Shown here: positions 11,304 through 31,004 of the stretch, piece after piece
How positions within the stretch are numbered: the stretch's first letter is position 1
Layout: each line of letters starts with the position of its first letter
NCBI RefSeq assembly: GCF_003390325.1
Contig: NZ_QUOK01000001.1
Location: forward strand, 310,001-374,000
Length of the DNA: 64,000 nucleotides
Direction of reading: 5' to 3'
Source of the DNA: Rhodohalobacter sp. SW132
GTDB taxonomy: Bacteria > Bacteroidota > Rhodothermia > Balneolales > Balneolaceae
Position numbers and translations under genes: made by a program
The notes under the pieces: model-generated
Seen by the model: the letters and a program-made list of their open reading frames with translations, nothing else
The model's database searches: none
What the model was told of the DNA's origin: nothing

Positions 11304-11429
11304 CAGGGTGCAGGGTGCAGGGTGCAGGGTGCAGGGTGCAGGGTGCAGGGTGCAGGGTGCAGGGTGCAGGGTGCAGGGTGCAGGGTGCAGGGTGCAGGGT
11401 GCAGGGTGCAGGGTGCAGGGTGCAGGGTG
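11304..11429. repeat. Perfect tandem array of 18 x CAGGGTG
   Basis: Eighteen uninterrupted head-to-tail copies of the 7-bp unit, followed by a partial unit (CAGG). No spacers are present, so it is a simple VNTR rather than CRISPR. It lies between a flagellin terminator and the lipid-kinase start codon. Absence of mutations between copies points to recent expansion by slippage. Confidence 0.97.
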
Positions 11430-11595
11430 CAGGCAGGAAGTTGACATCGCCTCAACGCAAAGTCAAATTTAATACTAAAAATAGTGCATTATTTTCGAAT
11501 GGTTTTTTTCTGCTCTTTGATGATCACTCATAAAATTTTGAAGTATCCACACTTGGACCGAGAACCCTTGCGCCCTGAACCTTGGACCCTGAAAC

Positions 11596-11630
11596 AAAAA
11601 AAAGCCTCCCGATACTATCGGAAGGCTTTT
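11596..11630 (-). terminator. Flagellin rho-independent terminator
   Basis: On the minus strand an AAAAGCCTTCCGATA / TATCGGGAGGCTTTT hairpin is followed by eight Ts, 30 bp after the flagellin stop codon. The same hairpin follows the third flagellin (14217-14251). Confidence 0.85.
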
Positions 11631-11659
11631 GGAATGTTGATCCATTATGTAATCTGTAC

Positions 11660-12607
11660 TTACCCGAGGAATCCGAGTACAGATTGAGGACCCATATTCG
11701 CTTGTGCCAGTGCAGACGTTGAGGTCTGCTGCAAAATCTGCAGTCTTACAGACTCACTCTGCTCCTTGGCAAAGTCGGCATCCATAATTCTACTTGAAGC
11801 CGAACTGTTGGCGCTGATCGATTGCGAGAGCGTTACTTCACGAATACTCAGCGATGATTGCGTCATACCGATTTCGTTCACTCGCTCATTCATCCCTTCA
11901 ATCGCTGTATCCACAGCGTCGATAAAGCTTCGGAAATCATCAGCCGTAGCTGCATCAAACGACAGACCACCCTGTCCGCCTGTGCCCGCAGCTGTGGCGG
12001 AAATCGCTCCCGATGCCGCTCCTATCTCAGTATCACCACCTGCTGCAAACAACTCACCGATGTTTACCGCTGACAGATCCGTCGTCAGCGTATCGGAAGA
12101 CCGCTCGCCTACCTGGAACGTAAGTGAAAAATCACCGGTATTTGTCGCTGCACCAGAAGAGGCATCTACAGCACCATTCAACAGCTCAGAATCCTGGAAT
12201 ACGGTTTGGTTGGCAACATCATTGATATCTTCGGCCAGCTTCTCAATCTGGGCGCCGATGTATCCACGCTCATTTTCTCCAAGCGTATCGTTGGCTGCCT
12301 GTGTGGCAAGAGCTTTCATTTCGATCAGGCTATCCATAACTGTATCAAAACTTGACTCGGCAATATCAAGAACCGACTTGGCGTCGCCTACATTCTGAAG
12401 CGCCTGCTCCAGGCCGGCAACCCGGCTGTTTAATTTCGTTGCAATTGCATATCCGGCAGCATCATCTTCCGCACGGTTGATCCGGAGACCGGTAGAGAGT
12501 TTCAGCTGGTTGTCAGCAAGGTCTCTGTTGATTCGATTCAGCGACAACTGGGAATCCAGCGACTGAATATTGGTATTGACTCTGTTTAAATCGCCAAAAC
12601 TTGACAT
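11660..12607 (-). CDS. fliC: Flagellin (copy 1)
   Basis: A 315-residue flagellin, the subunit of the flagellar filament, exported through the flagellar type III apparatus. The N-terminal D0/D1 helix (VNTNIQSLDSQLSLNRIN, residues 10-27, then STGLRINRAEDDAAGYAIA) and the C-terminal helix (QILQQTSTSALAQANM, ending SVLGFLG) are well conserved. The central domain is short and rich in Ser, Thr, Ala and Gly (about residues 150-215), which offers O-glycosylation sites. The protein is identical to that of the third flagellin gene. It has its own sigma-28-type promoter and terminator, so it is monocistronic. A 15-copy heptamer array starts 100 bp upstream of the ATG. Confidence 0.97.
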   Translation of the reverse strand: MSSFGDLNRVNTNIQSLDSQLSLNRINRDLADNQLKLSTGLRINRAEDDAAGYAIATKLNSRVAGLEQALQNVGDAKSVLDIAESSFDTVMDSLIEMKALATQAANDTLGENERGYIGAQIEKLAEDINDVANQTVFQDSELLNGAVDASSGAATNTGDFSLTFQVGERSSDTLTTDLSAVNIGELFAAGGDTEIGAASGAISATAAGTGGQGGLSFDAATADDFRSFIDAVDTAIEGMNERVNEIGMTQSSLSIREVTLSQSISANSSASSRIMDADFAKEQSESVRLQILQQTSTSALAQANMGPQSVLGFLG

Positions 12608-12659
12608 GTTATATCACCTTTTGTTTGTTCGTATAATTAAGTTGCATTCGTTAAAAGGT

Positions 12660-12686
12660 TTATCGAAGGCGAAAAGGCGATCTTAA
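12660..12686 (-). promoter_or_regulatory. Sigma-28 (FliA) type promoter of flagellin 1
   Basis: On the minus strand TTAAGATC - 11 bp - TTCGATAA, close to the enteric FliA consensus TAAAGTTT-N11-GCCGATAA. The expected start leaves a leader of roughly 45 nt before the ATG at 12607. The same boxes with the same 11-bp spacing precede the other two flagellins. Confidence 0.75.
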
Positions 12687-12706
12687 ATTTTTTTTAATTT
12701 TTTTTG

Positions 12707-12811
12707 CAGGGTGCAGGGTGCAGGGTGCAGGGTGCAGGGTGCAGGGTGCAGGGTGCAGGGTGCAGGGTGCAGGGTGCAGGGTGCAGGGTGCAGGGTGCAG
12801 GGTGCAGGGTG
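12707..12811. repeat. Perfect tandem array of 15 x CAGGGTG
   Basis: Fifteen uninterrupted copies followed by CAGGCAGGAAG, the same junction as the first array. Its edge is only 20 bp upstream of the -35-like box of the flagellin 1 promoter, so changes in copy number would alter DNA next to the RNA polymerase site. Confidence 0.97.
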
Positions 12812-13001
12812 CAGGCAGGAAGTTTGACATCGCCATCAACGCAAAGTCAAATTTAATACTAAAAATCGCAGATATTTCCAGACTTTCGATATTCACTGCA
12901 GTTCATTCATTAAACTTAGAAGCATTTGACTTACCCCTTGTGCCTTGCGCCCTGCCGGTGCCTTTCCCGGTCCCGGCGAATGCCGGGGAACCTTGAAACA
13001 A

Positions 13002-13034
13002 AAAAAAGCCTCCCTGATCTCTCGGGAGGCTTTT
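13002..13034 (-). terminator. Flagellin 2 rho-independent terminator
   Basis: AAAAGCCTCCC paired with GGGAGGCTTTT around a short loop; on the minus strand a run of seven Ts follows. It lies 36 bp after the flagellin 2 stop codon. Confidence 0.85.
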
Positions 13035-13069
13035 GAATAATGGTACTGTTTATGTGTCAGATTCAGTTC

Positions 13070-14014
13070 TTACCCGAGGAATCCGAGTACAGATTGAGGA
13101 CCCATATTGGCTTGTGCCAGTGCAGAGGTTGAAGTCTGCTGCAGAATCTGAAGCCGAATAGATTCACTCTGTTCTTTGGCAAAATCCGCATCCATAATTC
13201 GACTCGATGCTGCACGGTTGGCACTAATGGATTGAGAGAGCGTCACTTCCCGAATACTAAGTGATGACTGCGTCATACCGATTTCGTTTACACGCTCATT
13301 CATCCCTTCAATCGCTGCATCCACTGCATCGATAAAGCTTCGGAAATCATCCGCTGTTGCAGAATTGAATGTTAACGATCCCTGGCCTCCGGTGCCTGCA
13401 GCTGTTGCTGTAATCGATCCGGCTGTGGCCCCTATTTCATTATTGGTACCTTCAGTAAACAACTCACCGATATTTACTGCAGACAGATTAGTCGTCAGCG
13501 TATCTGTAGATCGTTCACCCACCTGGAAAGTAAGGGTTAAATTACCGGTGTTCGTTGGATTTCCGGCTGAATCTACTGCACCATTCAACAGCTCAGAATC
13601 CTGGAATACGGTTTGGTTTGCGATATCATTGATATCTTGCGCCAGCTTCTCAATCTGTGCACCGATGTATCCGCGCTCATTTTCTCCAAGCGTATCGTTG
13701 GCAGCCTGGGTAGCAAGAGCTTTCATTTCGATCAGGTTGTCCATTACCGTGTCAAAACTTGACTCGGCAATATCAAGAACCGACTTGGCGTCGCCTACAT
13801 TCTGAAGCGCCTGCTCCAGGCCGGCAACCCGGCTGTTTAATTTCGTTGCAATTGCATAACCGGCAGCATCATCCTCAGCACGGTTAATTCGAAGACCTGT
13901 TGACAATCGAAGCTGATTGTTTGCCAGATCTCTGTTAATTCTGTTCAGTGACAACTGGGAATCCAGCGACTGAATATTGGTATTGACTCTGTTTAAATCA
14001 CCAAAACTTGACAT
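13070..14014 (-). CDS. fliC: Flagellin (copy 2, divergent)
   Basis: A 314-residue flagellin that matches the other two copies almost residue for residue in the N-terminal D0/D1 (one or two changes, e.g. ADNQLK to ANNQLR) and in the C-terminal helices. It differs mainly in the central surface-exposed part (about 145-215, where SAGNPTNTGN replaces ASSGAATNTGD) and at ANRAASSR near 280. It therefore packs into the same filament but presents a different variable surface. It has its own terminator and its own sigma-28-type promoter. Overall identity to the other copies is roughly 90 percent by eye. Confidence 0.97.
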   Translation of the reverse strand: MSSFGDLNRVNTNIQSLDSQLSLNRINRDLANNQLRLSTGLRINRAEDDAAGYAIATKLNSRVAGLEQALQNVGDAKSVLDIAESSFDTVMDNLIEMKALATQAANDTLGENERGYIGAQIEKLAQDINDIANQTVFQDSELLNGAVDSAGNPTNTGNLTLTFQVGERSTDTLTTNLSAVNIGELFTEGTNNEIGATAGSITATAAGTGGQGSLTFNSATADDFRSFIDAVDAAIEGMNERVNEIGMTQSSLSIREVTLSQSISANRAASSRIMDADFAKEQSESIRLQILQQTSTSALAQANMGPQSVLGFLG

Positions 14015-14069
14015 GATAATTCACCATTTATTTAGTTGTTCATCTATACAATCTTATAGATATATGGAG

Positions 14070-14096
14070 TTATCGTTACCGAATTCGTGATCTTAA
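14070..14096 (-). promoter_or_regulatory. Sigma-28 (FliA) type promoter of flagellin 2
   Basis: On the minus strand TTAAGATC - 11 bp - AACGATAA. The -35-like box is identical to that of the other flagellins although the surrounding spacer and leader differ, which shows selection on the boxes themselves. The leader to the ATG at 14014 would be about 50 nt. Confidence 0.75.
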
Positions 14097-14144
14097 ATAG
14101 ACTTAAAATTATTTTTTATAAAATTAACATGTTTTTTAGTATTG

Positions 14145-14181
14145 CAGGGTGCAGGGTGCAAATGTTGACGCAGTCAACATT
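14145..14181. repeat. Two-copy CAGGGTG remnant joined to a perfect palindrome
   Basis: Two heptamers (14145-14158) are followed by AATGTTGAC-GCA-GTCAACATT (14161-14181), a hairpin with perfect 9-bp arms. In the two longer arrays the equivalent position holds a related but broken sequence (GTTGACATCGCCTCAAC). This may be the contracted or ancestral form of the array element. Confidence 0.7.
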
Positions 14182-14216
14182 TTGTCACCTGCGCCCTGAA
14201 CCTTGGACCCTGAAAC

Positions 14217-14251
14217 AAAAAAAAGCCTCCCGATACTATCGGAAGGCTTTT
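14217..14251 (-). terminator. Flagellin 3 rho-independent terminator
   Basis: Same hairpin as at 11596-11630, part of the direct repeat: a strong GC stem followed by eight Ts on the minus strand. Confidence 0.85.
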
Positions 14252-14280
14252 GGAATGTTGATCCATTATGTAATCTGTAC

Positions 14281-15228
14281 TTACCCGAGGAATCCGAGTA
14301 CAGATTGAGGACCCATATTCGCTTGTGCCAGTGCAGACGTTGAGGTCTGCTGCAAAATCTGCAGTCTTACAGACTCACTCTGCTCCTTGGCAAAGTCGGC
14401 ATCCATAATTCTACTTGAAGCCGAACTGTTGGCGCTGATCGATTGCGAGAGCGTTACTTCACGAATACTCAGCGATGATTGCGTCATACCGATTTCGTTC
14501 ACTCGCTCATTCATCCCTTCAATCGCTGTATCCACAGCGTCGATAAAGCTTCGGAAATCATCAGCCGTAGCTGCATCAAACGACAGACCACCCTGTCCGC
14601 CTGTGCCCGCAGCTGTGGCGGAAATCGCTCCCGATGCCGCTCCTATCTCAGTATCACCACCTGCTGCAAACAACTCACCGATGTTTACCGCTGACAGATC
14701 CGTCGTCAGCGTATCGGAAGACCGCTCGCCTACCTGGAACGTAAGTGAAAAATCACCGGTATTTGTCGCTGCACCAGAAGAGGCATCTACAGCACCATTC
14801 AACAGCTCAGAATCCTGGAATACGGTTTGGTTGGCAACATCATTGATATCTTCGGCCAGCTTCTCAATCTGGGCGCCGATGTATCCACGCTCATTTTCTC
14901 CAAGCGTATCGTTGGCTGCCTGTGTGGCAAGAGCTTTCATTTCGATCAGGCTATCCATAACTGTATCAAAACTTGACTCGGCAATATCAAGAACCGACTT
15001 GGCGTCGCCTACATTCTGAAGCGCCTGCTCCAGGCCGGCAACCCGGCTGTTTAATTTCGTTGCAATTGCATATCCGGCAGCATCATCTTCCGCACGGTTG
15101 ATCCGGAGACCGGTAGAGAGTTTCAGCTGGTTGTCAGCAAGGTCTCTGTTGATTCGATTCAGCGACAACTGGGAATCCAGCGACTGAATATTGGTATTGA
15201 CTCTGTTTAAATCGCCAAAACTTGACAT
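14281..15228 (-). CDS. fliC: Flagellin (copy 3, identical to copy 1)
   Basis: A 315-residue flagellin whose translation is identical to the gene at 11660-12607, inside the second copy of the direct repeat. It has the same D0/D1 ends, short Ser/Thr/Ala/Gly-rich centre, sigma-28-type promoter and terminator. The difference from copy 1 is the upstream neighbourhood: beyond the T-tract there is no heptamer array, and the next gene upstream is the helicase-PLD gene. Two identical copies give a dosage effect and a substrate for recombination that would delete or re-assort flagellin 2. Confidence 0.97.
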   Translation of the reverse strand: MSSFGDLNRVNTNIQSLDSQLSLNRINRDLADNQLKLSTGLRINRAEDDAAGYAIATKLNSRVAGLEQALQNVGDAKSVLDIAESSFDTVMDSLIEMKALATQAANDTLGENERGYIGAQIEKLAEDINDVANQTVFQDSELLNGAVDASSGAATNTGDFSLTFQVGERSSDTLTTDLSAVNIGELFAAGGDTEIGAASGAISATAAGTGGQGGLSFDAATADDFRSFIDAVDTAIEGMNERVNEIGMTQSSLSIREVTLSQSISANSSASSRIMDADFAKEQSESVRLQILQQTSTSALAQANMGPQSVLGFLG

Positions 15229-15280
15229 GTTATATCACCTTTTGTTTGTTCGTATAATTAAGTTGCATTCGTTAAAAGGT

Positions 15281-15307
15281 TTATCGAAGGCGAAAAGGCG
15301 ATCTTAA
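15281..15307 (-). promoter_or_regulatory. Sigma-28 (FliA) type promoter of flagellin 3
   Basis: TTAAGATC - 11 bp - TTCGATAA on the minus strand, identical to the flagellin 1 promoter, being part of the direct repeat. Confidence 0.75.
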
Positions 15308-15497
15308 ATTTTTTTTAATAAAAAAGTGAAAAAGAAAAAGAGAGAGGTAAAAGCGCCCATATGATGCATTCAAGCTTATTTAGCAAAGTGGAGTTTCTTC
15401 AAATTACAGATTAATGATAGTAAATGGAGGATGACATCTGCTCCTTTTGATAGAGAGATACAATTAATTTAAAGGCTCTTAAAATCAGATAATTGCA

Positions 15498-18400
15498 TCA
15501 ACAAGAAGCTTTTACTCGTTTATCCATATCCCTCTTAAATGCTGTCACCAGTTTTTCAATAGTTTCAGTATGTGAATTATTCTTATTCCAATATACAAGT
15601 GACCGTTCATAACGTTGATATTTATCTGCCTTACTTCGTTGGGCGGAAAGCCAATTAAACGAACCTTCACTTATCAAAAAATGATCGGCACACATCGTTT
15701 TATTATGAAAGTTTTGGGCTACATTAACTGATGCTCCGGCTTCTTTCAAAAGCACTATTCCCTTTTTAGCGGAAGATTTTAATTGAGATTTGCTATCCTT
15801 ATTCAGAAATGCATCCACATAACAAGTCACCTTAATACCACGATTTTTTGCATCCCTGATTAATTCAGGAATCTTATCAGATTGGACCGCATAATCTGTA
15901 ATAAAAGGAGAAGCAATGATAATATGCTTTTGAGCAGACTTAAAACAATATCTTAGAAGCTTGCGATGGCGTTTTAGTTCCGCTATACGTTCAACCGAAA
16001 CTTCAGAGTCAAGCTGTTCATTCTTGATAATTTTATGAGGCTCAATGTCCACCAGTTCATTACCGGAGTCCTCAAATAGATAGGTTGCCAAAAGTCCTGA
16101 GGGATCATTTGTATTATTAGGGTCGAAAATATGCATGTCGCCAAAAACCAGAAAACTTTCCTTAGCCCGGGATACGGCTACATTGAGCATCATCACATCC
16201 TGATCAAAGAAATAACTGCCGGTATGGTTTCGATCATATACAGATGAAAAAATCACCACATCCCGTTCAGCACCTTGAAGGGCATGCACGGTACCCACAG
16301 TTATTTTATCTAATCCATTATTCTTTCCTTTTAAAATCTTTTTAATAATTGTTTTCTGCTCCCTAAATGGCGTAACAACGGCTATTATATCTTCTATACA
16401 TTGTTCATCAGACTTATTTATTAAACGTGTTTTATTCTTTGAGATCCAATCAGCAACAGTTTGGGCCTCCTGTTCGTTGTAGCGACTGGCGCTATTGTCT
16501 CTTTGTGACATACCCTGAACATGAGCAAATCCAAAACGTGGTAAGTGGCATGATTCCCCGCTCTTCCGTTGAGGCTGAAGCTCACCATGGTATACAAGTT
16601 TATTACAGTAGTCGATTATTTCCGGCACACACCGCCAATGTTCCGAAAGGAACATCCCACCGACATCAATATTCTCTAACTTATATGGACTGCTTTTTTG
16701 AGCAACTCTCATTACGCTTCCGCCATAGGTTGTTATACCCGCTTGCTTAAGTTGCTGATAGGCATAGTCATCAAAGCTGAGTGTATTTACTGCATTTTCT
16801 TTGTCCAATTATTTTACTAACACCCCAAATCGGTTGTATTTGGCTCGTATCTCCTACAACCAATGCTTTCCTGGCCAGTGCAAAGCCAGCTCCTCCAATT
16901 TCCGGAGAAACCTGACCTGCTTCATCTACGATAAGCAGATCAGCAAAATTTATCAGCGGATCATTGACACTATCTGCATAATGGCTGAAATACTTGGGAA
17001 GCATATAAAAGGTGCTTACAAAACATGGGGTTAATTTGGCATAACGAAGCCATTTTTTTTCTGTGTCTTTTTTTGAGTAGTTTTTGTTCTGTTTTAAAAA
17101 ATCCTCCATTTCCAAAAGCCACCGACCTTCCCAATAATGAATGGCATATAGAAACATCTTATGTCTAATTTGCGAATCGAGAAGTTTTAGATCCCTGTCA
17201 TTCTCACCATCATTATAAACTTTGATATTCTGTTTAAACCAAGAATTGATTTTCAAAAGTAGTTCTTTGTACTCTTTTAAAGCTGAAAGAATTTTATCAG
17301 CATTCTTCTTTTCTTTAAATATACCCTGGCTCGTTTCAAAAAAATATGCTAGTAGTTTATCATGCGATGTGGAATTTTCTTCGCTTGGTGTCCAATAGCT
17401 ATCTTTAAAAAAGAACTGATTATGAAGCTTGATCTCATTCCTGAACCGGGGAACTACCGTACCCAACCAACGAATATAAAACGGGAGTCCTTTATAGCTT
17501 TCCTTCCATTCTTCCCTAACAGAATTGAGATCATCTAACTTTCTGGATATATCAATAACTTCTTTATCTGCCGCATTAATTTTAGCCGTTATAACCTCAA
17601 GTTCTTTATCAACCTGAAACTGATTCTCAATCACGCTTGCCGGATCTTCATCCGTAAATTGATTTTGTTTATGTAATAACATTTCCCCTTCTTCAAGGGT
17701 CTTATACATTTTCTGTAATTCTGTATGGAGATGGCTTTTAATCTCCCCGACGGATGAGAATGATTGGCTAAAGTATTGTAGTGCCTTCTCACAGAACACT
17801 TTTTTTGCCCTATCAAGAAAGGGTTGATTTTCAATTTCGCCAGGAAAGCCTTTGCCTGAGAAACTGGTTTTTAGCACCCCTTCCTCATTATCACTTTTCA
17901 GTACTTCGTTTGAAGGACAATATAATGCGAAACTTGAAACCGGCTCCGGCAACCAACGATTTACGAGGATATCAGGATGCACATCCCCTTCAAAACTTTG
18001 AATTATGTTGGTAATAGCCTGATTATTTGCTGATGACGCCAAGATTACTGGTGGCTCTTCATTGGCAAGGGCTTTTTCAACAAATAGATGTGCCACTATG
18101 CCTTGAAGAAGTGTTGTTTTACCTGTTCCGGGAGGCCCATTCACTGCCAGTATTTCTCCATCTTTAAGCTCACTAAAATGGTGCAGTGCCTGACGTTGCG
18201 AATCTGCTAAGGGGTTATCTCCCTTCATTTGACCCATATGAGATGTAAGCTCCTGCTTTATACGTTGCTCACTTATCTCTTTTCTTTTATTACCTGGGGA
18301 GAGATCACAGAATGAATTCAATAATTCGTTAGATTCATTTTCATCAATAAGATGATTGTATAATTGAATAATAGATTCATTTGCTCCAGATTTCACACCC

Positions 18401-19101
18401 GAATCAAGTGCAATGTAGGCATTCTCATCAAGTATGAATTCCTCACCTCCAAATGTAAAATGCTCTACCTCGTTTCCGTTGATATTTAATGCAAATGTAT
18501 CAGCTGATGCGAAATGCTTTAAAAAATTGATCCCCCATTCGAAATAGCTGCTCCACTTAAGGTCTACATCTACAGCTGGATTCTTCGCTGTATATTCTTC
18601 TTCTTCAGAAGTAGTTCCCAACAGCTGCTCTTTTTTTTGCTTCGAAGTGGAACTTTCGGCAAATAAATAATCACGGTCAATCCAAGGTGAAAAGTCACCA
18701 TCTGCAATTAAATTTCCAGACTGTTCAAGCCTGGCCGGTATCCAGAGAGGTATTAAGGAATTTTTTACTTTATTCTGTTTCCTTTTGTTTTTAAGAAGCC
18801 TTCGGAAGGGACAGATAAGTACCGGACAGAACATTGGCTCATCGTCTGCATCAAAGGTATGAGTTTCAGTTTTTTTATCGCTGCCATCTTTATCTTTTAA
18901 TTCTGAGCGATACTTATGAAATAATTTCTCAGTGATGCTATGATTTACTTTGCCTTCTGTGATTTCTTTGAAAGAAATTTTTAAAGCATTTTTAAAATAA
19001 GAATAAGAATTTACCTTCCTGCGTTCTGCTTCTAATAATGAATTTCTGAGATATCTTAGAACGGTATGACTGCTGTTCTTCTTCCTATCTATAATTGGCA
19101 C
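15498..19101 (-). pseudogene. COG1112-type SF1 helicase with C-terminal PLD nuclease, frameshifted (Mokosh type II-like)
   Basis: Two abutting frames form one gene of about 1200 codons. Frame 1 (19101-16771, GTG start, 776 residues) carries an N-terminal VLRYLRNSLLEAERRKV-type region, Walker A GPPGTGKTT near residue 320, a long insert, and the Walker B variant DEAG near 725. Frame 2 (16808-15498, apparent TTG start) continues with helicase motifs (SEHWRC, VGTVHALQGAERD, NVAVSRAKE) and a PLD-like domain containing SPFITD and one HxK-x4-D motif (HNKTMCAD). Near 16805 the minus strand reads ATTGGACAAAG; one G fewer restores I-I-D-K-E-N across the junction. Helicase plus PLD in one chain is the architecture of Mokosh type II (MkoC) anti-phage proteins. 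It may be a pseudogene, a sequencing error, a phase-variable site or programmed slippage. Confidence 0.75.
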
Positions 19102-19465: not shown

Positions 19466-20230
19466 TTACTCAAAATTAACTTCAGAGGCTATTTTCAGAT
19501 CTTTTATGTTATCAACCTCAAACCATCCTCTTTGAATCGAAACATACGTGACCTTAGAGGTTTGAGATAGAAAATTAAGCAGGTCGGTCATGTACGTATT
19601 TTTGAGTTCGCGTCCGGAATTCCAGGTGTCAGCTATGCAGGCCGAATCATCTTTACAACTGTAGTATGCTTTCTTCATGATATCACACCCTTTGGCCGAG
19701 AATTTCATCAACCCTGTAAATTGCCCATCTATTTCTTTCGTGGAATTCGCTTTTTGACCAAGACTCTTTACCTGGTTATTCGGCCCCGTGACAAATGTCT
19801 CTGCATCTGACAGCGGATCTCCACAACGCTTATTCCAATATTGCTCCCAGAGTTCATCTGAGGCCAAAACGATATCTTCTTTGCTGTCTAATACTTTTTT
19901 CAGCACTTTTTTCGAATAGATAATATCTCCGTATGCAACTATAACTTCTCTATTAAATTCCTTTTCTGCACACATGAGGCTGTAGACCATATTTGTTGAA
20001 TCAAAATCAATATTTATTACTTTTTTTATTCTCGGATCCTGAATCTTCTCTTCTTTATACCCGGCCACTACTGTAATATCTACAATGCCATAAGAGTTTA
20101 AGGTTTCAATTTGCCATTCAAGCATTGGTTTTCCATTTACTTTAACCATGCATTTGGGGACATCATCAGTAAGTGGGCGGAGTCGTGTTCCTTGTCCTGC
20201 TGCGAGAATTATTGCTTTTGCTGAACTCAT
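19466..20230 (-). CDS. Sugar/glutamine-phosphate nucleotidyltransferase, probable CTP:phosphoglutamine cytidylyltransferase
   Basis: A 254-residue nucleotidyltransferase (GT-A-like fold). The nucleotide-binding ILAAGQGTRLRP is at residues 8-19, a PKCMVKVNGKPMLEW lysine region follows, YGDIIY carries the metal-binding Asp near 97-102, and GWFEVDNIKDL is at the C-terminus. LicC-like cytidylyltransferases have this form. The gene is the last of a run translationally coupled with a glutamine-amidotransferase-like hydrolase and a PEP-synthase-like kinase. In Campylobacter the same trio (Cj1416, Cj1417, Cj1418) makes CDP-amidate, and this would be the Cj1416 counterpart, joining CTP and glutamine phosphate. 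The fold is certain; the substrate rests on context. Confidence 0.75.
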   Translation of the reverse strand: MSSAKAIILAAGQGTRLRPLTDDVPKCMVKVNGKPMLEWQIETLNSYGIVDITVVAGYKEEKIQDPRIKKVINIDFDSTNMVYSLMCAEKEFNREVIVAYGDIIYSKKVLKKVLDSKEDIVLASDELWEQYWNKRCGDPLSDAETFVTGPNNQVKSLGQKANSTKEIDGQFTGLMKFSAKGCDIMKKAYYSCKDDSACIADTWNSGRELKNTYMTDLLNFLSQTSKVTYVSIQRGWFEVDNIKDLKIASEVNFE

Positions 20231-20901
20231 GTTTTCTGACTGGCATTAAAAATTTTTGAAAATAAAAAAATGTCTTCTTCTCTGAATGAAGTATATCGTT
20301 CGGGATGCCACATCATACCAAAAATTGGATGTGAATTGTGACGAACAGCTTCAGCTTCATCCTTGTAACGGCCGGCAACCACTATCTCTTCAGGCAGGTC
20401 ATCAATCAAGATTCCTTTACGATGATAAGAATTGCAGGATCTTTTATCGCCGAAAATATTGGAAAAGTGTTGTTCTAAAAAAGAAACCTCATGCTCTTTC
20501 GCTACATGTATTCCCGGCTCAACATCGGAAAGCTTTCCACCAAAAAAGGTGCATATTAATTGCATTCCCCGGCAAATTCCGATCACCGGTTTCTGGTTGG
20601 TAACAGCCCATTGAAGTAACTCGGTTTCGGTTTTATCTCTTTCTATGGCAACATCTTCTTTCATTAACAAATCGAGATCATCACTTTTATTTTCCGAGAC
20701 GTTGTTGCCACCTGAAAAAATGACCCCGTCTAATTGCAAGTGATCTGTATAATCAATTGGGCTTGATATTGCATTGGGTATTGGATAGAGCTGGATACCA
20801 ATCTTGGATGCAAATGCATACCAACTTTGGTCCAGGACATCTCGTCGTTCATTTACCTTTTCTTCATATACAACCCGCTGCGTTATACCAATTCGTTTCA
20901 T
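20227..20901 (-). CDS. Class I glutamine amidotransferase-like hydrolase, probable gamma-glutamyl-CDP-amidate hydrolase
   Basis: A 224-residue class I GATase/gamma-glutamyl hydrolase fold (PuuD-like). The catalytic triad is Cys110 in GICRGMQ, His199 and Glu201 in WHPER, and the SGGNN loop is at residues 63-67. No synthetase domain is fused and no amidation partner is encoded nearby, so it is a stand-alone hydrolase. It overlaps its neighbours by 4 bp on both sides, between a PEP-synthase-like kinase and a nucleotidyltransferase. That order is the signature of the phosphoramidate pathway, where Cj1417 releases glutamate from gamma-glutamyl-CDP-amidate to give cytidine diphosphoramidate. A generic gamma-glutamyl-GABA hydrolase is the alternative, but it would not explain the coupling. 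Confidence 0.78.
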   Translation of the reverse strand: MKRIGITQRVVYEEKVNERRDVLDQSWYAFASKIGIQLYPIPNAISSPIDYTDHLQLDGVIFSGGNNVSENKSDDLDLLMKEDVAIERDKTETELLQWAVTNQKPVIGICRGMQLICTFFGGKLSDVEPGIHVAKEHEVSFLEQHFSNIFGDKRSCNSYHRKGILIDDLPEEIVVAGRYKDEAEAVRHNSHPIFGMMWHPERYTSFREEDIFLFSKIFNASQKT

Positions 20902-23900
20902 CCCAATACACGTATTTGTTTATTGGCACAATTCAATTCTACCTTTTCTGCCTTTTGCAGCCTATCAAAAAGTTCTTCTCCACATCCAATAGCTGCAGGC
21001 AGTCCAAATTCAGCACAGCGAATCGTCATGTGAGACGCAGCACCACCATATTTGGTAATCAACCCTTTTATAGGGTGCAAGAATATCCAATCATAACCCG
21101 GATCTGCACCTTCTGTAAGCACAATTTTACCAACAAGTTCTTCTTTAGAAGAAATCTCTGATAGTTTACAAATAGCAGATGTCACCGATTTAGTACTTAC
21201 ATAATTAGGCTCTGCTGAATTATGTTCAATTATATCCAGATCATCGGGTGATAAAATGATTTGAGGGGTCTCAATTTTATTCGAATCTTCGTGCCAGGTT
21301 CTTCCATCCTGCACTTTTTGTTTTATGTATAGAACCGGTTCCCGTGCAATAGTTTGTGTATTCAGCCGTAAAATATCTTCTACAAATAAGTACGACATAT
21401 CCTGCCTAGTAAAACCATGATGAAATCCCCATTCTGTAATCAATGTGAGCACGGCGTCCAGGTTTTTGGTGAATTGGAATTTAGCGTATTCCCTTGCCGC
21501 TGTAGCCTTGCGAATGAATTCCAATAATTGAGGGGCACTAAACTTCATTTCCATCGTTTCAATTTCCTGCTCTATCCTGGCCATTGTTTTTTCAGAAAAT
21601 AACGTTGATGAGGCCTCTATACTCTTGATTGCTGGCTGATTTGTTGCTCTTTGCGAAGATTCCAACGGAAAATAATATTCCGGCTTTTCCCTATAACTAA
21701 ATGTTGTGATATCGTAACTTCCCGGACGCAGATGGCCAAATTCATTCAAAAAATCTTCTCGCGATAATTTGCCCGCCAGAACAAGATCCATCTTTTCTAC
21801 CAGTTCTCCGGCAACAGTCTCAATTGTATTTAAATACTGATCTTTCTCTGTTTTTGTTATGGCGCCTTTAGCAACCAATCCTTTCATCATAGAGGATGCT
21901 ATAAACCCATATCGTGCCATAATGGAAAATGGAATGGTTCCAAAGTTTATGCAATCATCAATCAGAATATTAATAATTGACGGGATCTCATCGATCTCAT
22001 AATTCTGTTGGAGTAACTTTTCTCTTCGCGGATTTAATTTTTCGGTCTCTTTAATGAGTTCATCCACCGATAGAGTATCCCCAACTACAGCCTGCTCTGT
22101 TAGCTGATGCAAACCAGATTTGAGTTCATTGATCTCTTCGTTCGTAAATCCTGCATCAATAAGCCTTTGAAGGTGGTGATCGATATCCGGGCTAAAGCAT
22201 GTAATGGCAATATCAAACTCGATCTTATCATGAAGATGTGGATTCTCTTTCAGCCTTTGGACGTAATGATTTATAAGTTTTTCGGAAAGCTCGGGTGAAA
22301 GATCTTTAGGAATTAGATTATTGAAACTATTCCTAACATCAATATATGGATGCCCGCCAATGCTAAACATGAGTTTTTCCGGGGCCGGATCGTGATATCC
22401 CATTTTGCCCCGGGCAACTCGCCACGCAGAATCGGTAATCAAATATTGGTATAACGAAATATCTAAAGGCTTTGGGCGCACTCCAATCATTTCAGCCGGA
22501 TTCCAATCAGGCATATCCGCCAAAAGTGTATTCTCACCATAGATATGAGGATATGGTTTACATCGCGATTTAATCTTTCTTTTGGCTTCCTCTACCCTGC
22601 TATGAAAATCTTGCACCTCTCTTAGCCCGGTGTGAGTGGTGATGGGCCGTACCTGAACAACATACAGCACACCGGAGGTACTAAGTACGAATTCAATATC
22701 GAGCGAGGAATAGCCGGTTATAGATTCCAACTCCTCAACGGCCTCCGTTATTTTTTGCAGTCGTAAATCATTGGGGCGCTTTTGTCCATTTTTATAGATC
22801 AATATAGATCGGGAATCTCCTGTGCTCCCTGATGTCACCGTATCTGTTCTGTTTGATTGATCATCATAATTGATCAGAATATAGGGGGTCCCATTTTCCA
22901 AATGTCTGGTGAAAGCCACTCCGCTCATTTCAACATCTGTAATAAATGGTTGTACCAATACCTGATTCTCAGGATTATACGTTCCGGAACCATTGGATCG
23001 AAAGCCGCTTATCACTTCTTCCACGGCTGAATCTAACATCTTTGGCTCCCCAGCCGAAACTCCTGCAACACTAAGAAAAGCCCCGGCTTGGGATGAATCC
23101 CATGAATCTTCTTCCAGAGAACTGCTTCTAACGATTAATTCATGTCCCTGAAACCGATGTTGTATATCTTTAATAATGGTTTCTGAGTTGTGCTCCCAAT
23201 ATTTTAATGGAAAATGAATCTGGTCGGTAACCACAGATTTTTTCACAAACGGTCGAATTCGCTCTAACGTCTCTGCTTTGGTACCAAATATGAAATGGGC
23301 AAGATCTTCATGAGAATCCAGTTCGGCCCAGTCTCCACTGTGATCAAATAAAGTGAGCTCGAATTTATTTTTATCCTTTAAATAGATCAACAAATCGGTC
23401 AGGCTTCCCTGGTCATTCAATCCCGATTGTTTCTGGCCTACAAATATTTCATACAAATCCCGGACAACATGCTCTTTCAAATACATCAACCCCGAAAACT
23501 GTGCATTTGCCGCTTCAGGTGATATGTTTTGCCGGCCTACCTTTTCAGCTGTTCCGTTTGAAGAGATTACTTTCTCGGCACGGTATTGCAGCTCAGGTGA
23601 TGTAAGCCTTTCCCTCCAGTTTTTATCCACTCCGATTAAAACCGGTGACTGATTCTGCAGAAGTTCTTGAAAAACAGATGGGCGAAAGACTGTATCCGCA
23701 TACATAAACATCAGATCCCCTCCCTGCCAGTTTTCCATCGCATACCTGAGTGATCCCAACACATGGGTACTCTCCCACCTGGGATTAATCGCATAATGTA
23801 TTTGTGGATACTCCCGTATAATTTTCTCGATCTGATACCCCCCAACAAATGAGATCTGGTCGTATGCAATTCCGGCTTCACTTAAACCATAAAGAGTCCA

Positions 23901-24026
23901 GTCCAAAACTTTATGTCCGCGAACCAGCCTCTCCAGAATAGGCTGAGAATGATCTGAATAAAGCGAACTTTGTGTACGTGCTGCACCAAATATAAAAACC
24001 TGCATTTTGCCCCGTGCCTTATTCAT
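20898..24026 (-). CDS. Nucleotidyltransferase-like domain fused to PEP-synthase-like kinase, probable L-glutamine kinase
   Basis: A 1042-residue fusion. Residues ~8-245 are a nucleotidyltransferase-like domain that shares landmarks with the separate enzyme downstream (MYADTVF, NAQFSGLMYL, SLTDLLIYL, GDWAELDS). Its GxGTRL loop, however, is replaced by FGAARTQSSLYSD, so it may be inactive or altered in specificity. Residues ~260-470 are a PPDK/PEP-synthase ATP-grasp domain (RSSSLEEDSWDSSQAGAF, VEMSGVAFTR, QVRPITTH). After a helical middle region the C-terminal phosphohistidine domain has GGAASHMTIRCAEFGLPAA with catalytic His999. Campylobacter Cj1418, a glutamine kinase, has the ATP-grasp and His domains; together with the two downstream genes this points to phosphorylation of the glutamine amide. 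The ATG overlaps the upstream stop by 8 bp. Confidence 0.75.
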   Translation of the reverse strand: MNKARGKMQVFIFGAARTQSSLYSDHSQPILERLVRGHKVLDWTLYGLSEAGIAYDQISFVGGYQIEKIIREYPQIHYAINPRWESTHVLGSLRYAMENWQGGDLMFMYADTVFRPSVFQELLQNQSPVLIGVDKNWRERLTSPELQYRAEKVISSNGTAEKVGRQNISPEAANAQFSGLMYLKEHVVRDLYEIFVGQKQSGLNDQGSLTDLLIYLKDKNKFELTLFDHSGDWAELDSHEDLAHFIFGTKAETLERIRPFVKKSVVTDQIHFPLKYWEHNSETIIKDIQHRFQGHELIVRSSSLEEDSWDSSQAGAFLSVAGVSAGEPKMLDSAVEEVISGFRSNGSGTYNPENQVLVQPFITDVEMSGVAFTRHLENGTPYILINYDDQSNRTDTVTSGSTGDSRSILIYKNGQKRPNDLRLQKITEAVEELESITGYSSLDIEFVLSTSGVLYVVQVRPITTHTGLREVQDFHSRVEEAKRKIKSRCKPYPHIYGENTLLADMPDWNPAEMIGVRPKPLDISLYQYLITDSAWRVARGKMGYHDPAPEKLMFSIGGHPYIDVRNSFNNLIPKDLSPELSEKLINHYVQRLKENPHLHDKIEFDIAITCFSPDIDHHLQRLIDAGFTNEEINELKSGLHQLTEQAVVGDTLSVDELIKETEKLNPRREKLLQQNYEIDEIPSIINILIDDCINFGTIPFSIMARYGFIASSMMKGLVAKGAITKTEKDQYLNTIETVAGELVEKMDLVLAGKLSREDFLNEFGHLRPGSYDITTFSYREKPEYYFPLESSQRATNQPAIKSIEASSTLFSEKTMARIEQEIETMEMKFSAPQLLEFIRKATAAREYAKFQFTKNLDAVLTLITEWGFHHGFTRQDMSYLFVEDILRLNTQTIAREPVLYIKQKVQDGRTWHEDSNKIETPQIILSPDDLDIIEHNSAEPNYVSTKSVTSAICKLSEISSKEELVGKIVLTEGADPGYDWIFLHPIKGLITKYGGAASHMTIRCAEFGLPAAIGCGEELFDRLQKAEKVELNCANKQIRVLG

Positions 24027-24921
24027 AAATTGGATTTTTTACCTCTTTATTATCGTACCAATTCTGCAATTCATTAAGCAGGTCTATCTCATCACGATTT
24101 AGAATAGATTGATAAATACCAATGTTCTTAACAGAAATCCCCGGATCAAAATACCGAAGCGATGCAGTATGTGATTCACTCTTCACATTTAGAAAGTTTT
24201 CAATTTTTCTCTTTATCTCTTCATAATGGTTAACGAGCTTCTCAAACCCAATATGAATAACTTTTTCCGGGCCATGTGCTTCCAATATCTTGTCTGCCCA
24301 ATTAATTCGGGCTTTCAGTGTATCTATTTGAAATTTTACAGCACCCATCCTGTCCCCTCCGTAAATATCAGCTGTCGCAGACCTCATATGTTTAAATAAA
24401 TGTCCCTGCCTAATAATCTCTGCCATTTGATCTTTTGGAGATCTGTAAACTATAATCATCTTATACGGACTAAATACTTCAGGCCAAACCTTAAAGTGTT
24501 GTCCAAGAAGAAGAGGCTGATCAAAAACTACCCATTTCGCATTTCCTCCATATATCGACCGAATAGTATCAATCCACAATTTTGCTTCTTGCAAATTATG
24601 CTGATGGTCACCTTTTTTTAAACTTCTATATAACTGGGTCAATGCCTGAAGCCGTGATAAAGATTGTTTCAACGTATGTTTATCAATATCACTGATGCGA
24701 CTGTTTAAATTTTTAATTTCTTTTAAACTATTCCCAAGCAGCGTTTCAATTTTTGACGGGTAGTATTTGCTAATCCTTTTTTCCAAATGATCTCCAACCA
24801 GTCCCGGCCTTCTAAATTCATCGAACTCTCCGGGAACAAAACCGGTCCCTTCATATTCTTTTAAAAGGTCCGTAACAGCACTTGAACCTGACCACAAAAG
24901 CCCATTTATCAAAACATTCAT
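24019..24921 (-). CDS. P-loop sulfotransferase-like protein
   Basis: A 300-residue protein with an N-terminal P-loop (INGLLWSGSSAVTDLL, residues 4-19) like the 5'-phosphosulfate loop of sulfotransferases, and a later MIIVYRSPKDQMAEII segment near residue 155 like the 3'-phosphate-binding helix. Sulfotransferases use PAPS, a 3'-phosphorylated nucleotide carrying a transferable group. In the phosphoramidate pathway the activated donor is 3'-phospho-CDP-amidate, which has the same logic, and this gene overlaps the putative glutamine kinase by 8 bp. It could be the phosphoramidate transferase, a true sulfotransferase, or, less likely, the nucleotide 3'-kinase. No PAPS-synthesis genes are visible nearby. 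Confidence 0.6.
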   Translation of the reverse strand: MNVLINGLLWSGSSAVTDLLKEYEGTGFVPGEFDEFRRPGLVGDHLEKRISKYYPSKIETLLGNSLKEIKNLNSRISDIDKHTLKQSLSRLQALTQLYRSLKKGDHQHNLQEAKLWIDTIRSIYGGNAKWVVFDQPLLLGQHFKVWPEVFSPYKMIIVYRSPKDQMAEIIRQGHLFKHMRSATADIYGGDRMGAVKFQIDTLKARINWADKILEAHGPEKVIHIGFEKLVNHYEEIKRKIENFLNVKSESHTASLRYFDPGISVKNIGIYQSILNRDEIDLLNELQNWYDNKEVKNPIYE

Positions 24922-25006
24922 ATCATTTATAAAATCTTATTGAAATTTTATCAAAAGAAGCCTGGTTAGATGTGCTAAGCAGGCTCTTTTAATCCACTAA
25001 TTTGGT

Positions 25007-25798
25007 TTAATGTTGATTGAATTTGTTTATGGCTTGCGGTAATAAAGCATCATGCATGAAATAATACGTTTTACCTTCTGAATGCTGTTGCCGGGTTGTC
25101 TTCCAGTAAGCCGGGTCGGGGATATTATGGAACAATGAGCCCAGTATTTCAGCCCGAAAGTGTGGATCCACATAGTTGATAAGAAGTTTCTTTGCAGCCT
25201 TTAAACCCATTTCTCGAAAGTCAACTTCAAAACTTGGTAACAAGTGGCTTCTGGTATCGATGATGTCACCTGTATCAATTCCTTCATTCATAAAAAAGGC
25301 ACTCATTCCAATTATGTCGTGCACTAATGTACTCCACAGAAACCCATCTGCCCCTTTAACATTTGGAACTTCTCCAGGATGGATGTGAATAAAGCGTTTT
25401 CCACAATTCAGAACATCTTTTCTGAGTATCCCCCCGCCACAAAAAATAATGTATTGTTCTGACGTGTTCTCCAGAAACGTAATGAGGATCTCACCATTAA
25501 TATTATCGATGGTTAACGTGTCGTATTCCCATCCTATAGAATTGAGAGTGTCTTCAGTGGAAAGGGTCAGATCTCCGGTAAACAAACTTTTTGCTTTTAA
25601 AGCAGAATTGATTGCAGAAGCAATCCTGGAGAATTCAGATGTAGTTAATTCTTCAATTTTATTTGAATAGCTACTGTTCTGCCATCTCAAAAGTAATACC
25701 TTCGATGGTCTCAACCCTAACCTGTGTAATCTATACAGGTATGCTTTCGTAATATTGTGGGCAGTTGCAAGTAAAAGTACATTCTCCAATCTCTTCAT
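25007..25798 (-). CDS. Formyltransferase-domain protein (methionyl-tRNA formyltransferase-like)
   Basis: A 263-residue protein with the formyltransferase fold. The conserved FIHIHPGEVPNVKGADGFLW (residues 136-155, His140) and GIDTGDII (Asp175/Asp178) correspond to the catalytic His and Asp of 10-formyltetrahydrofolate enzymes. It is shorter than methionyl-tRNA formyltransferase and lacks its C-terminal tRNA-binding domain, which is usual for enzymes that N-formylate amino sugars. In this operon an amino-sugar substrate, such as the product of the aminotransferase at 27377-28495, is plausible. The usual catalytic Asn before the His is not evident (GGGIL stands there), so altered chemistry is possible. 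Confidence 0.7.
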   Translation of the reverse strand: MKRLENVLLLATAHNITKAYLYRLHRLGLRPSKVLLLRWQNSSYSNKIEELTTSEFSRIASAINSALKAKSLFTGDLTLSTEDTLNSIGWEYDTLTIDNINGEILITFLENTSEQYIIFCGGGILRKDVLNCGKRFIHIHPGEVPNVKGADGFLWSTLVHDIIGMSAFFMNEGIDTGDIIDTRSHLLPSFEVDFREMGLKAAKKLLINYVDPHFRAEILGSLFHNIPDPAYWKTTRQQHSEGKTYYFMHDALLPQAINKFNQH

Positions 25799-25802
25799 GA
25801 TA

Positions 25803-26130
25803 TTAAAAATTGATTTGGGGCAGTTCCATATCGATCAGATCCCCAATTTTTAAAGCTGTATTGTAGAACCGTACATCTTTTTGGATATATGCCAGAAGAC
25901 AAAAGCTAACCGCTAATTGGCTATATATTTCTTTACCTAATTCTTACTTTTGTTGCCGGTTTCGAAAGCTCATCGTCGTAACCGGTGTACAACTTTTTAT
26001 TGATCTCAAATTTTCGCATCAGTTTTTCAAGAAGATTGCTGTTCAAGCTGTCTTCAACCTGAATAGCTGGGATTATATCTTTGATTCTAACCTTTATTTG
26101 CCTCCCGCTCTGATCGCAGACTTTATGTAT
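25803..26130 (-). pseudogene. Decayed gene remnant between the formyltransferase-like and CDP-glycerol-transferase-like genes
   Basis: Two short minus-strand frames without start codons read as the tail of one lost gene. The first is open from 26130 to the stop at 25933 (containing VEDSLNSNLLEKLMRKFEI and LYTGYDDELSKPATKV). The second is open to the stop at 25803 (ELGKEIYSQLAVSFCLLAYI, RFYNTALKIGDLIDMEL). One added base near 25940 would join them in frame. The first frame begins inside the 3' end of the upstream gene, as coupled genes in this operon do, but its 5' part is missing. I do not recognise the family. It is the only non-compact junction of the operon apart from the 85-bp gap at 24922-25006. 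Confidence 0.4.
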
Positions 26131-27380
26131 TTAATTATATTTTCGGATGCTGTAAAACCATCATTATCTTTTAAATACTCTGCTACAAACTGATGTCGCT
26201 GTGCTTGCATAACATCCTGTTTATTTAAAATCTGATCATCGATAAATTGAATTATTTCTGATGATCGATGGGCATGATAGTGTTGTTCAAAAGCCTTTTT
26301 ACCAAACTCGTGGAGCCGGCCAGATACGTTTTCATCACGCAATAAATAGAGAGGTGGCTTTGATGTTGACAAATACTCAACCATAAACGAAGAGCAATCG
26401 TGAATCAGAGCATCGGAGGTCAAAAACAAGCGGGTATAACCGGACTGTTCCAGCAAACCATTTTCCAATTTCTTCCAAAAATCATAATATGCATTTGTTC
26501 TTTCCTTACCCCATTCTTCATCCTTATAGAGCTTTTCTTTTAGCATTGGATGAGGTTTAAATGCTATTTGAATACGATCTGAATACTCCAGTGCAATATC
26601 CTGAAATACTTCATAATATTGTTTGAACGTAGAGTAGTCGAGGTCCTGTCCCTGCCCTTCAATCGTGTGATGCGGCGCCCATATTATTCGTTTATGATCC
26701 TTTAAAGGCCAGGGATCAGAATCATCGTTATCTGATGGATACAAAAAATCATCCAGTGGGGGATACCCGCTTACCACTACGTTATCCCCTCCATTTCGGG
26801 CATACATTTGAGCATACTGCTTATGAACTTCCGTCTCATAAAAATTACGCCATACCAGGTTGTGAAACGGACCATCATAATTTTTCTCTTCTTTTCCATT
26901 GGTGGTAAAAAAGTAAGGGACGTAGCAAGAGAGTGATTCAGTATAATGATGCAGTCGATATTCGTCCCTTGTGTAATCAAAGGGGACGGAATAAAAAACG
27001 ATGTCAGGATTCAGCGAACTCTTGATGTCTATCCAACGGTCATTCTCTTCATCATAGGTTTTAATGGCCTTGTATCCTTTCGACTGTATTTCTTCGAAGG
27101 TAACATTCATTTCCTCCAGCATATATTCACTACCTTCCCGCAAATAAGGACACACAAATACCACCGGCTCAAAAAACGGATCCTGCTCCATGAGCTGATA
27201 AAGTCGATTGTACTTCCAAACAGCTCTATGAATGACCTGAAAGCCTACGGTAATCACAGATTTATTTTTCAGCCTATCTAACACCTTGCAATAACGTTTT
27301 CTGTAAACCTTCATACGTTCTTCTACCGGTTCATCAAATATACTCTTTGCTTTCGCAGCCACCATTGCTTGTTGTGTCAT
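26094..27380 (-). CDS. CDP-glycerol glycerophosphotransferase-like (GT-B) transferase
   Basis: A 428-residue GT-B-fold protein whose C-terminal half carries the landmarks of the TagB/TagF family: WAPHHT near 225, AFKPHP near 270, and TSDALIHDCSSFMVEYLSTS near 325-345, equivalent to the SD-SS-xxxD/E donor-phosphate site. These enzymes transfer glycerol-phosphate, ribitol-phosphate or related CDP-linked phosphoalcohols to glycans. The N-terminal half (about 1-200) is diverged. It is coupled by 4 bp (ATGA) to the aminotransferase gene upstream. With a CDP-linked phosphoramidate route in the same operon, its donor could be a CDP-activated group; this is inference. Confidence 0.72.
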   Translation of the reverse strand: MTQQAMVAAKAKSIFDEPVEERMKVYRKRYCKVLDRLKNKSVITVGFQVIHRAVWKYNRLYQLMEQDPFFEPVVFVCPYLREGSEYMLEEMNVTFEEIQSKGYKAIKTYDEENDRWIDIKSSLNPDIVFYSVPFDYTRDEYRLHHYTESLSCYVPYFFTTNGKEEKNYDGPFHNLVWRNFYETEVHKQYAQMYARNGGDNVVVSGYPPLDDFLYPSDNDDSDPWPLKDHKRIIWAPHHTIEGQGQDLDYSTFKQYYEVFQDIALEYSDRIQIAFKPHPMLKEKLYKDEEWGKERTNAYYDFWKKLENGLLEQSGYTRLFLTSDALIHDCSSFMVEYLSTSKPPLYLLRDENVSGRLHEFGKKAFEQHYHAHRSSEIIQFIDDQILNKQDVMQAQRHQFVAEYLKDNDGFTASENIIKYIKSAIRAGGK

Positions 27381-28495
27381 ACCTTCACCTCCACGGTTTG
27401 ATAACTGCCCACTGCTTTAACCACTTTTTGAAGCTGTTTTTCATCCAAAACCGGGCTGATAGGCAGACTCACAACTTCTTTGTGCATCTGATTTGTGATG
27501 GGAAGATCACATTTATGCAACTCCGGGTATCCCTCCTGTTCATTAGGTGCAATGGGATAGTGGATGGAAGCCTCCACACCCTCCTCTTTCAAATGTCTTA
27601 TGAACTCATCTCTGTTTTTAACCCGCACCACGAATAAATGCCATACATGGGAAGCTTCATCTTTACATTTCGGGAGTTGCACTTCAGGATTTGAAATATT
27701 TTGCAAGTAAAAATTCGCAACCTCTTTGCGCTTCCTATTATCTGCATCCAACCCTTTCAGTTTAATGCGGAGTATGGCAGCCTGAATTTCATCCAAGCGA
27801 CTGTTAAAACCTTTGTACTTATACTTGTACTTCGTCTCACCGCCATAATTACTCAGTGCCCGACAACATTCGGCAAACTGAAAATTGTTGGTGCAGATCG
27901 CTCCACCATCACCCATTCCTCCCAGGTTTTTTCCCGGATAGAAACTAAACGCTGCTGCATCACCCAAACTACCAATTCGTTTTTCTTCATGATATGCCCC
28001 ATGAGCCTGGGCTGCATCCTCAACGAGCTTTAGGTCATATTTCCCACATAATTTACCGATTTTTTGGGAATGGGCATTTTGGCCGTACAGATGCACAATC
28101 ATAATAGCCTTTGTCTTACCAGTAATCTTCTTCTCTATCTGGTTGGGATCAATGTTATAGGTTTCAATATCGGGTTCAACCAGTACTGGTTTTAACCGGT
28201 TTTCCGTAATAGCCATAATTGAGGCAATAAAGGTGTTGGAGGGAACAATCACTTCATCTCCCTCTTCCATCTCTCCCATCACCATATAGGCCTGCAAGAT
28301 AATGCGCAACGCATCCAGTCCGTTTCCCACTCCTACCGTATGCCCCACGCCGATGTAGTCTGCATATTCCCTCTCAAACGCACCTACTTCTTTTCCCAAG
28401 ATGTACCAGCCAGACTTGACAACTCTTTTAATAGCATTTTCTATATCTTTTCCATATGGCTCATTAATATTTTTTAGATCCAAAAATTTAATCAT
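27377..28495 (-). CDS. DegT/DnrJ/EryC1/StrS sugar aminotransferase (FdtB/QdtB-like)
   Basis: A 372-residue PLP-dependent nucleotide-sugar aminotransferase. The PLP lysine is Lys189 in FSFYPGKNLGGMGDGG; VEDAAQAHGA near 158-167 and the GVGNGLDALRI motif near 55-65 are also typical. I place the start at 28495 (MIKFLDLKNINEP), which gives the family's normal N-terminus and an 8-bp ATGATTAA overlap with the upstream acyltransferase gene. The frame is open further upstream but encodes nothing conserved. Next to FdtA-like ketoisomerases it should aminate a dTDP-3-keto-6-deoxyhexose at C3, giving dTDP-Fuc3N or dTDP-Qui3N. Confidence 0.88.
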   Translation of the reverse strand: MIKFLDLKNINEPYGKDIENAIKRVVKSGWYILGKEVGAFEREYADYIGVGHTVGVGNGLDALRIILQAYMVMGEMEEGDEVIVPSNTFIASIMAITENRLKPVLVEPDIETYNIDPNQIEKKITGKTKAIMIVHLYGQNAHSQKIGKLCGKYDLKLVEDAAQAHGAYHEEKRIGSLGDAAAFSFYPGKNLGGMGDGGAICTNNFQFAECCRALSNYGGETKYKYKYKGFNSRLDEIQAAILRIKLKGLDADNRKRKEVANFYLQNISNPEVQLPKCKDEASHVWHLFVVRVKNRDEFIRHLKEEGVEASIHYPIAPNEQEGYPELHKCDLPITNQMHKEVVSLPISPVLDEKQLQKVVKAVGSYQTVEVKV

Positions 28496-29252: not shown

Positions 29253-29269
29253 ATCTAATACCTCACTTA

Positions 29270-31002: not shown

Positions 31003-31004
31003 AA

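Follow-up and report, generated by a model that had tools for sequence, protein, structure and literature searches.

A tandem flagellin locus with two identical transcription units around a divergent third, and evidence for exchange among them, in Rhodohalobacter sp. SW132

We analyzed a 64,000-nucleotide stretch of DNA (here called the window) from Rhodohalobacter sp. SW132 (assembly GCF_003390325.1, contig NZ_QUOK01000001.1, positions 310,001 to 374,000), in which three flagellin genes, fla1, fla2, and fla3, lie consecutively on the minus strand of the genome of this free-living bacterium. The outer two are identical together with their promoters and terminators: the direct repeat that contains them (11569-12698 versus 14190-15319) aligns at base level over 1130 bp with 0 differences, at a start-to-start offset of 2621 bp. 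This agrees with a first-pass annotation made from the letters of the window, which had described copies 1 and 3 as identical and whose outer coordinates are the exact borders of the repeat. Chance is excluded for an exact repeat of this length, and selection on the protein is ruled out as its cause, since the identity extends to intergenic and synonymous sites. At this locus, a flagellin unit has recently been duplicated exactly, and there is good evidence for repeated exchange among its members.

Layout of the three flagellin units

The repeat is one complete transcription unit, made of a sigma-28-type promoter, a gene for a flagellin of 315 amino acids (aa), and a terminator. The features of the locus are as follows (ORF, open reading frame).

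11569..12698, minus strand: repeat copy A (terminator, fla1, promoter), 1130 bp, equal to 14190-15319
11595..11631, minus strand: intrinsic terminator of fla1 (fla3 equivalent, 14216-14252); hairpin plus T run, fold of 11570-11670
11660..12607, minus strand: fla1, flagellin, 315 aa; ORF, Flagellin_N 3.8e-32, Flagellin_C 6.3e-16
12660..12685, minus strand: sigma-28-type promoter-like site of fla1 (TAAG-N-CGATAA), from pattern search
13000..13035, minus strand: intrinsic terminator of fla2; sequence, fold of 12980-13075
13070..14014, minus strand: fla2, flagellin, 314 aa, 90% identity to fla1; ORF, Flagellin_N 7.7e-33, Flagellin_C 1.3e-15
13752..13858, minus strand: fla2 tract of 107 bp, shared exactly with fla1 (12345-12451) and fla3 (14966-15072), from sequence comparison
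14070..14095, minus strand: sigma-28-type promoter-like site of fla2, from pattern search
14190..15319, minus strand: repeat copy B (terminator, fla3, promoter), 1130 bp, equal to 11569-12698
14281..15228, minus strand: fla3, flagellin, 315 aa, DNA identical to fla1; ORF, sequence comparison
15281..15306, minus strand: sigma-28-type promoter-like site of fla3, from pattern search

Bit scores against PF00669 (fla1 = 111.7, fla2 = 113.9, cut-off = 26.6) and PF00700 (fla1 = 58.9, fla2 = 57.9, cut-off = 23) place the products among bacterial flagellins. Genome-wide, Flagellin_N was found at four places: fla1, fla2, fla3, and positions 43174-43560 of the window, inside an ORF matching FlgL. The repeat copies are separated by 1491 bp with fla2 inside, and the ORFs of at least 60 aa between them are flagellin genes and frames overlapping these genes or the heptamer arrays described below, with nothing else. 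The TAAG-N-CGATAA sites, whose spacing fits the sigma-28 consensus, lie 52 to 55 bp before the start codon in all three genes; a site of this kind stands upstream of 56 of 80 flagellins from the host genome and its relatives (a small number of which belong to duplicate records), against a mean of 0.8 and a maximum of 4 after shuffling. With the promoter-like site excepted, homology upstream of fla1 and fla2 was rejected, as the local alignment was not above shuffles (20 of 300-type score, equaled by 31% of shuffles). With its own sigma-28-type promoter and terminator, each unit would be transcribed by itself, so that there may be two flagellin types, one of them encoded by two identical genes. 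All three genes are presumably expressed, and the likely use of the locus is more filament protein together with a mixed filament.

Between fla2 and fla1/fla3, 116 of 314 aligned codons differ (86 synonymous, 30 with amino acid changes), and 21 of the 30 amino acid changes fall in alignment columns 146-230 (hypergeometric P, 2e-7). The first-pass description of copy 2 as differing mainly in its surface-exposed center is thus right for the protein as regards the center; synonymous changes spread more widely than amino acid changes. As for exposure, the best solved flagellin covers residues 10-151 and 216-315 in the alignment and leaves the segment between them unaligned; this segment is presumably surface-exposed.

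Exchange among the units and in related loci

Codons 53-87 form a run of 35 codons with zero synonymous change between fla2 and fla1/fla3, while 86 of the 284 codons with the same residue differ synonymously over the whole alignment; 0/20000 permutations match such a run. In comparison with fla1, the same codons carry 10 to 24 synonymous changes in each of 70 full-length flagellins of relatives (27 loci), and because the relatives vary synonymously there, the run does not merely reflect constraint. (For this comparison and the run test below, 111 flagellin-like ORFs were reduced to 73 full-length rows from non-duplicate records.) The run is an excess tract of synonymous identity of the kind that concerted evolution leaves, and the paralogs are also closer to each other than to other flagellins in a tree of 72 rows, each a distinct full-length protein, in which fla1/3 and fla2 are sisters (support, 100/99). 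The intergenic sequence around the units carries heptamer arrays and their flanks.

11304..11433, plus strand: perfect heptamer array 1, CAGGGTG, 18.6 units, from repeat scan
11430..11483, plus strand: flank of array 1, common to 12812-12867, absent from the unit 3 gap
12705..12815, plus strand: perfect heptamer array 2, TGCAGGG, 15.9 units, from repeat scan
12812..12867, plus strand: flank of array 2, common to array 1
14142-14160: short heptamer array
14145..14198, no strand assigned: heptamer palindrome around GTTGAC-GCA-GTCAAC; RNA fold -36.4 kcal/mol, z -5.56

Unit 1 has a mosaic makeup. In its array and the next 55 bp it matches unit 2, and in its gene, promoter, and terminator it matches unit 3. 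The flanks of arrays 1 and 2 differ by two single-base indels and a mismatch at the final base in 56 columns, and their likeness ends at about 55 bp. A single simple duplication fails to explain this arrangement.

The genome groups with Balneolaceae, in which flagellin genes, where a relative possesses them, often stand side by side in tandem, with up to six full-length genes per stretch. A match to fla1 was found in 22 of 58 genomes (own included), leaving 36 without one. Three genomes of the same genus (G001, G002, and G003; 90%, 74%, and 89% complete) gave no flagellin match, while the host genome has a full flagellar cluster; because these genomes are 74 to 90% complete, flagellin loss in them is unproven. 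Neighboring flagellins share exact tracts of up to 852 bp in Fodinibius roseus (L045, with 6 differences over 993 bp of gene), up to 371 bp in F. salsisoli (L046), 317 bp for L170, and 310 bp for L166, and a test for runs gave p<=0.01 in 18 of 84 within-locus pairs and at 12 of 20 loci (19 of 84 pairs with another random seed). No exact 1130-bp unit appeared in the relatives' stretches that were fetched, where contigs ending inside flagellins limit visibility. Together, these comparisons document recurrent exchange among tandem flagellins in Balneolota.

We consider it probable that the units evolve in concert through recent recombination (gene conversion, or duplication plus rearrangement). 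Under this model, three flagellin genes in tandem, each transcribed separately, would be kept alike by recombination among their units, presumably homologous; one recent event would have copied the whole 1130-bp transcription unit and made the outer units identical, and smaller, older exchanges may have touched fla2 and the intergenic arrays. Copying between neighboring genes is an already known route of evolution for such gene families. The first-pass annotation had also proposed that recombination between the repeats would delete flagellin 2 and one identical copy along with a heptamer array, and the geometry agrees: the locus should be able to lose 2621 bp in this way, comprising fla2, either of the identical copies, the array of 15.9 units, and the small array.

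Several observations weigh against concerted evolution by exchange. The run test is not fully specific: p<=0.01 was reached by 7 of 105 different-locus pairs with matched synonymous divergence, four of which join contigs of one genome and three of which join closely related genomes. A first control (150 of 365 different-locus pairs, more diverged and hence repeated with the matched 105) gave 4 of 150 at the same threshold, and 8 of the relatives' 20 loci contain no significant pair. Homology ends abruptly at both borders of the 1130-bp repeat, and the adjoining 85 bp or so (11484-11568) are unmatched elsewhere in the genome, apart from a weak match of short length to the gap of fla2; because of these two features, no simple single event fits and the direction of copying is indeterminable. 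Recent independent duplication can also make tandem genes similar, and the basis here is one assembly of one strain, read from the contig sequence alone.

Alternative explanations and the heptamer repeats

A fresh tandem segmental duplication, in which array-fla2-gap-fla3 was doubled and one fla2 copy was then lost without gene conversion, is possible but doubtful. It would account for the A-B-A order and for the similarity of the array flanks of units 1 and 2, but these flanks carry two indels and an end mismatch in 56 columns versus none in 1130 bp, so the ages look unequal; moreover, the likeness of units 1 and 2 ends past the flank, and the 107-bp tract in fla2 requires a separate exchange regardless. 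Simple tandem duplication with clean loss of fla2 was rejected, since it predicts identical gaps downstream of fla1 and fla2, whose likeness ends at about 55 bp. An error of copy number in the assembly is unlikely. The exact repeat of 1130 bp exceeds usual short-read inserts, and a short-read graph of the form U1-R-U2-R-U3 is compatible with one passage through U2-R, with several, or with a deleted chromosome mixed with other forms. The assembly (45 contigs, 5.08 Mb) has its sole 16S match on a contig of 5407 bp, as in collapsed rRNA repeats, which points to a collapse of long repeats. Four different unique borders on one molecule, however, leave only a linear path with the repeat at least twice, the contig continues to 1.1 Mb with the window inside it, and the sequence of fla2 and of the borders is ordinary and unique. 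The unit should thus be present twice or more if the four borders share one molecule, while the contig would not reveal how many U2-R units there are or whether a deleted form is mixed in. Contig ends inside flagellins were considered as a sign of collapse in relatives (7 of 20 genomes versus 3.4 expected, counted by hand, with the expectation from rounded contig numbers) and set aside as too weak. Flagellin copy numbers are unsafe in short-read assemblies of this group.

A Salmonella-type invertible phase switch has inverted repeats around a promoter and a recombinase gene; here the long repeats are direct, lying on a single strand (no scan for other inverted repeats was made), and no evidence for a dedicated flagellin switch was seen at the locus. 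A contingency locus, in which flagellin composition is switched by a changing number of heptamers before fla1 or, between the repeats, by deletion or re-copying, seems highly improbable, as does its serving escape from phages, grazers, or other enemies. The differences between fla1/3 and fla2 in the protein center would suit such a role, array 2 sits some 20 bp before the fla1 promoter-like site on its upstream side, which is not so for fla3, and Campylobacter flaA/flaB recombination has been proposed as a source of variation (PMC5126078). However, a single form is represented in the one assembly, the arrays belong to a genome-wide intergenic family, deletion would be irreversible, and that paper describes phage-escape mutants without flaA/flaB recombination (PMC5126078).

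With concerted evolution through exchange as the preferred reading, the main interest lies in a possible, unproven link between flagellin exchange and heptamer palindromes. A perfect heptamer array lies 6 bp from the right border of copy A, and the left border of the repeat falls within heptamer-related sequence, as the first-pass annotation had noticed: the final nine bases of the palindrome 14145-14198 (its 3' foot) are the first bases of repeat copy B. The accompanying suggestion that heptamers explain the origin of the duplication is not established; it concerns one junction, a good deal of that gap is heptamer-like, and relatives exchange flagellins comparably with CARGGYN tracts of at least three units in 0 of 42 flagellin stretches (35 distinct, seven repeat records). 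Because none of the 42 stretches holds such a tract, heptamer arrays are unnecessary for flagellin exchange and are ruled out as its general driver. Perfect period-7 tracts were likewise absent from 20 flagellin stretches of relatives, save a 2.9-unit run of other sequence in L170. The GTTGAC/GTCAAC core, with 1 to 12 bases between its halves, occurs at one further genomic place (C5:346134-346149), between heptamer tracts, which also holds a 29-bp, 90% identical relative of the repeat's left end; the core is not over-represented, a reversed control pattern giving 3 matches. A second compound element, at about 2058-2230 of L146 (G000:C5), has heptamers, then a GTTGACAATCGTCAAC core, then inverted heptamers. 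A breakpoint role of the palindrome is conceivable from its one junction in this sequence. That heptamer palindromes are preferred break sites, such that a hairpin around GTTGAC-GTCAAC, cut or stalled in replication, starts copying of the adjacent unit, is very unlikely, and there seems equally little prospect that the dispersed intergenic family sets gene conversion borders in the genus in this way; if true, a repeat family would be linked to gene-family homogenization.

The CARGGTN family is dispersed between genes: a three-unit pattern has 74 matches in the host genome (58 forward, 16 reverse; overlapping matches counted) and 0 with the reversed control, and the degenerate heptamer pattern is present in 9 of the 58 genomes (the host genome counted), among them all four of the genus. 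Tracts begin 0 to 11 bp past an ORF stop codon in L145, L146, L147, L148 (two), L180, and L188, seven cases from 30 tracts listed, given without a chance level (L181 repeats L141, and the ORF of L188 is just 129 aa). Dispersed intergenic direct heptamer repeats are also known, with the unit TAACTGA, from Beggiatoaceae, Cyanobacteria, and Bacteroidetes, where they lie mostly just upstream of start codons (PMC4679880), in contrast to the CARGGTN unit here and its several tracts just past stop codons.

Known tandem flagellins and neighboring genes

The closest parallels are other tandem flagellins. In Campylobacter jejuni, flaA and flaB are tandem with 95% identity, with recombination reported between them and none found in phage-escape mutants (PMC5126078). 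There, flaA is under sigma-28 and flaB under sigma-54 control. Here, the same sigma-28-type site precedes all three genes rather than a sigma-28/sigma-54 pair (no sigma-54 site search was made), and two copies are fully identical with a divergent third between them. The concertedly evolving tandem fla genes of Alteromonadales, which belong to a different phylum, are more alike within than between species, and PMC6053082 leaves independent duplication open for them; in the present locus, the synonymous-free tract and the mosaic argue for exchange. Stenotrophomonas maltophilia likewise has three tandem genes, fliC1-fliC2-fliC3, described in PMC8998449 as one operon with 67 to 82% protein identity, whereas in the present locus every gene comes with a promoter-like site and a terminator of its own and two genes are identical. 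We found no paper joining "flagellin" and "Balneolaceae" and none on heptamer repeats in this bacterial group; papers joining "flagellin" and "Balneola" include a survey of flagellins in all phyla.

Upstream of the flagellins, two overlapping minus-strand ORFs (15498-16808 and 16771-19101), the upstream one matching AAA_11/AAA_30 and the downstream one AAA_12 and PLDc_2, look like a single helicase gene that a frameshift or an error of sequencing has split. The stretch from the flagellins to fliD holds a minus-strand set of sugar-modification-like genes (19466-36041), including nucleotidyl transferases, a DegT aminotransferase, a hexapeptide transferase, formyl- and sulfotransferase-like genes, and a PPDK-like gene, which perhaps serve flagellin glycosylation. 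Within these coordinates lies the gene of a 1678-aa protein (31005-36041, minus strand) with TPRs, Glyco_transf_41, an FkbM methyltransferase, and a further glycosyltransferase domain, a combination of TPR and glycosyltransferase that recalls the Caulobacter flagellin glycosyltransferase FlmG (PMC7591256).

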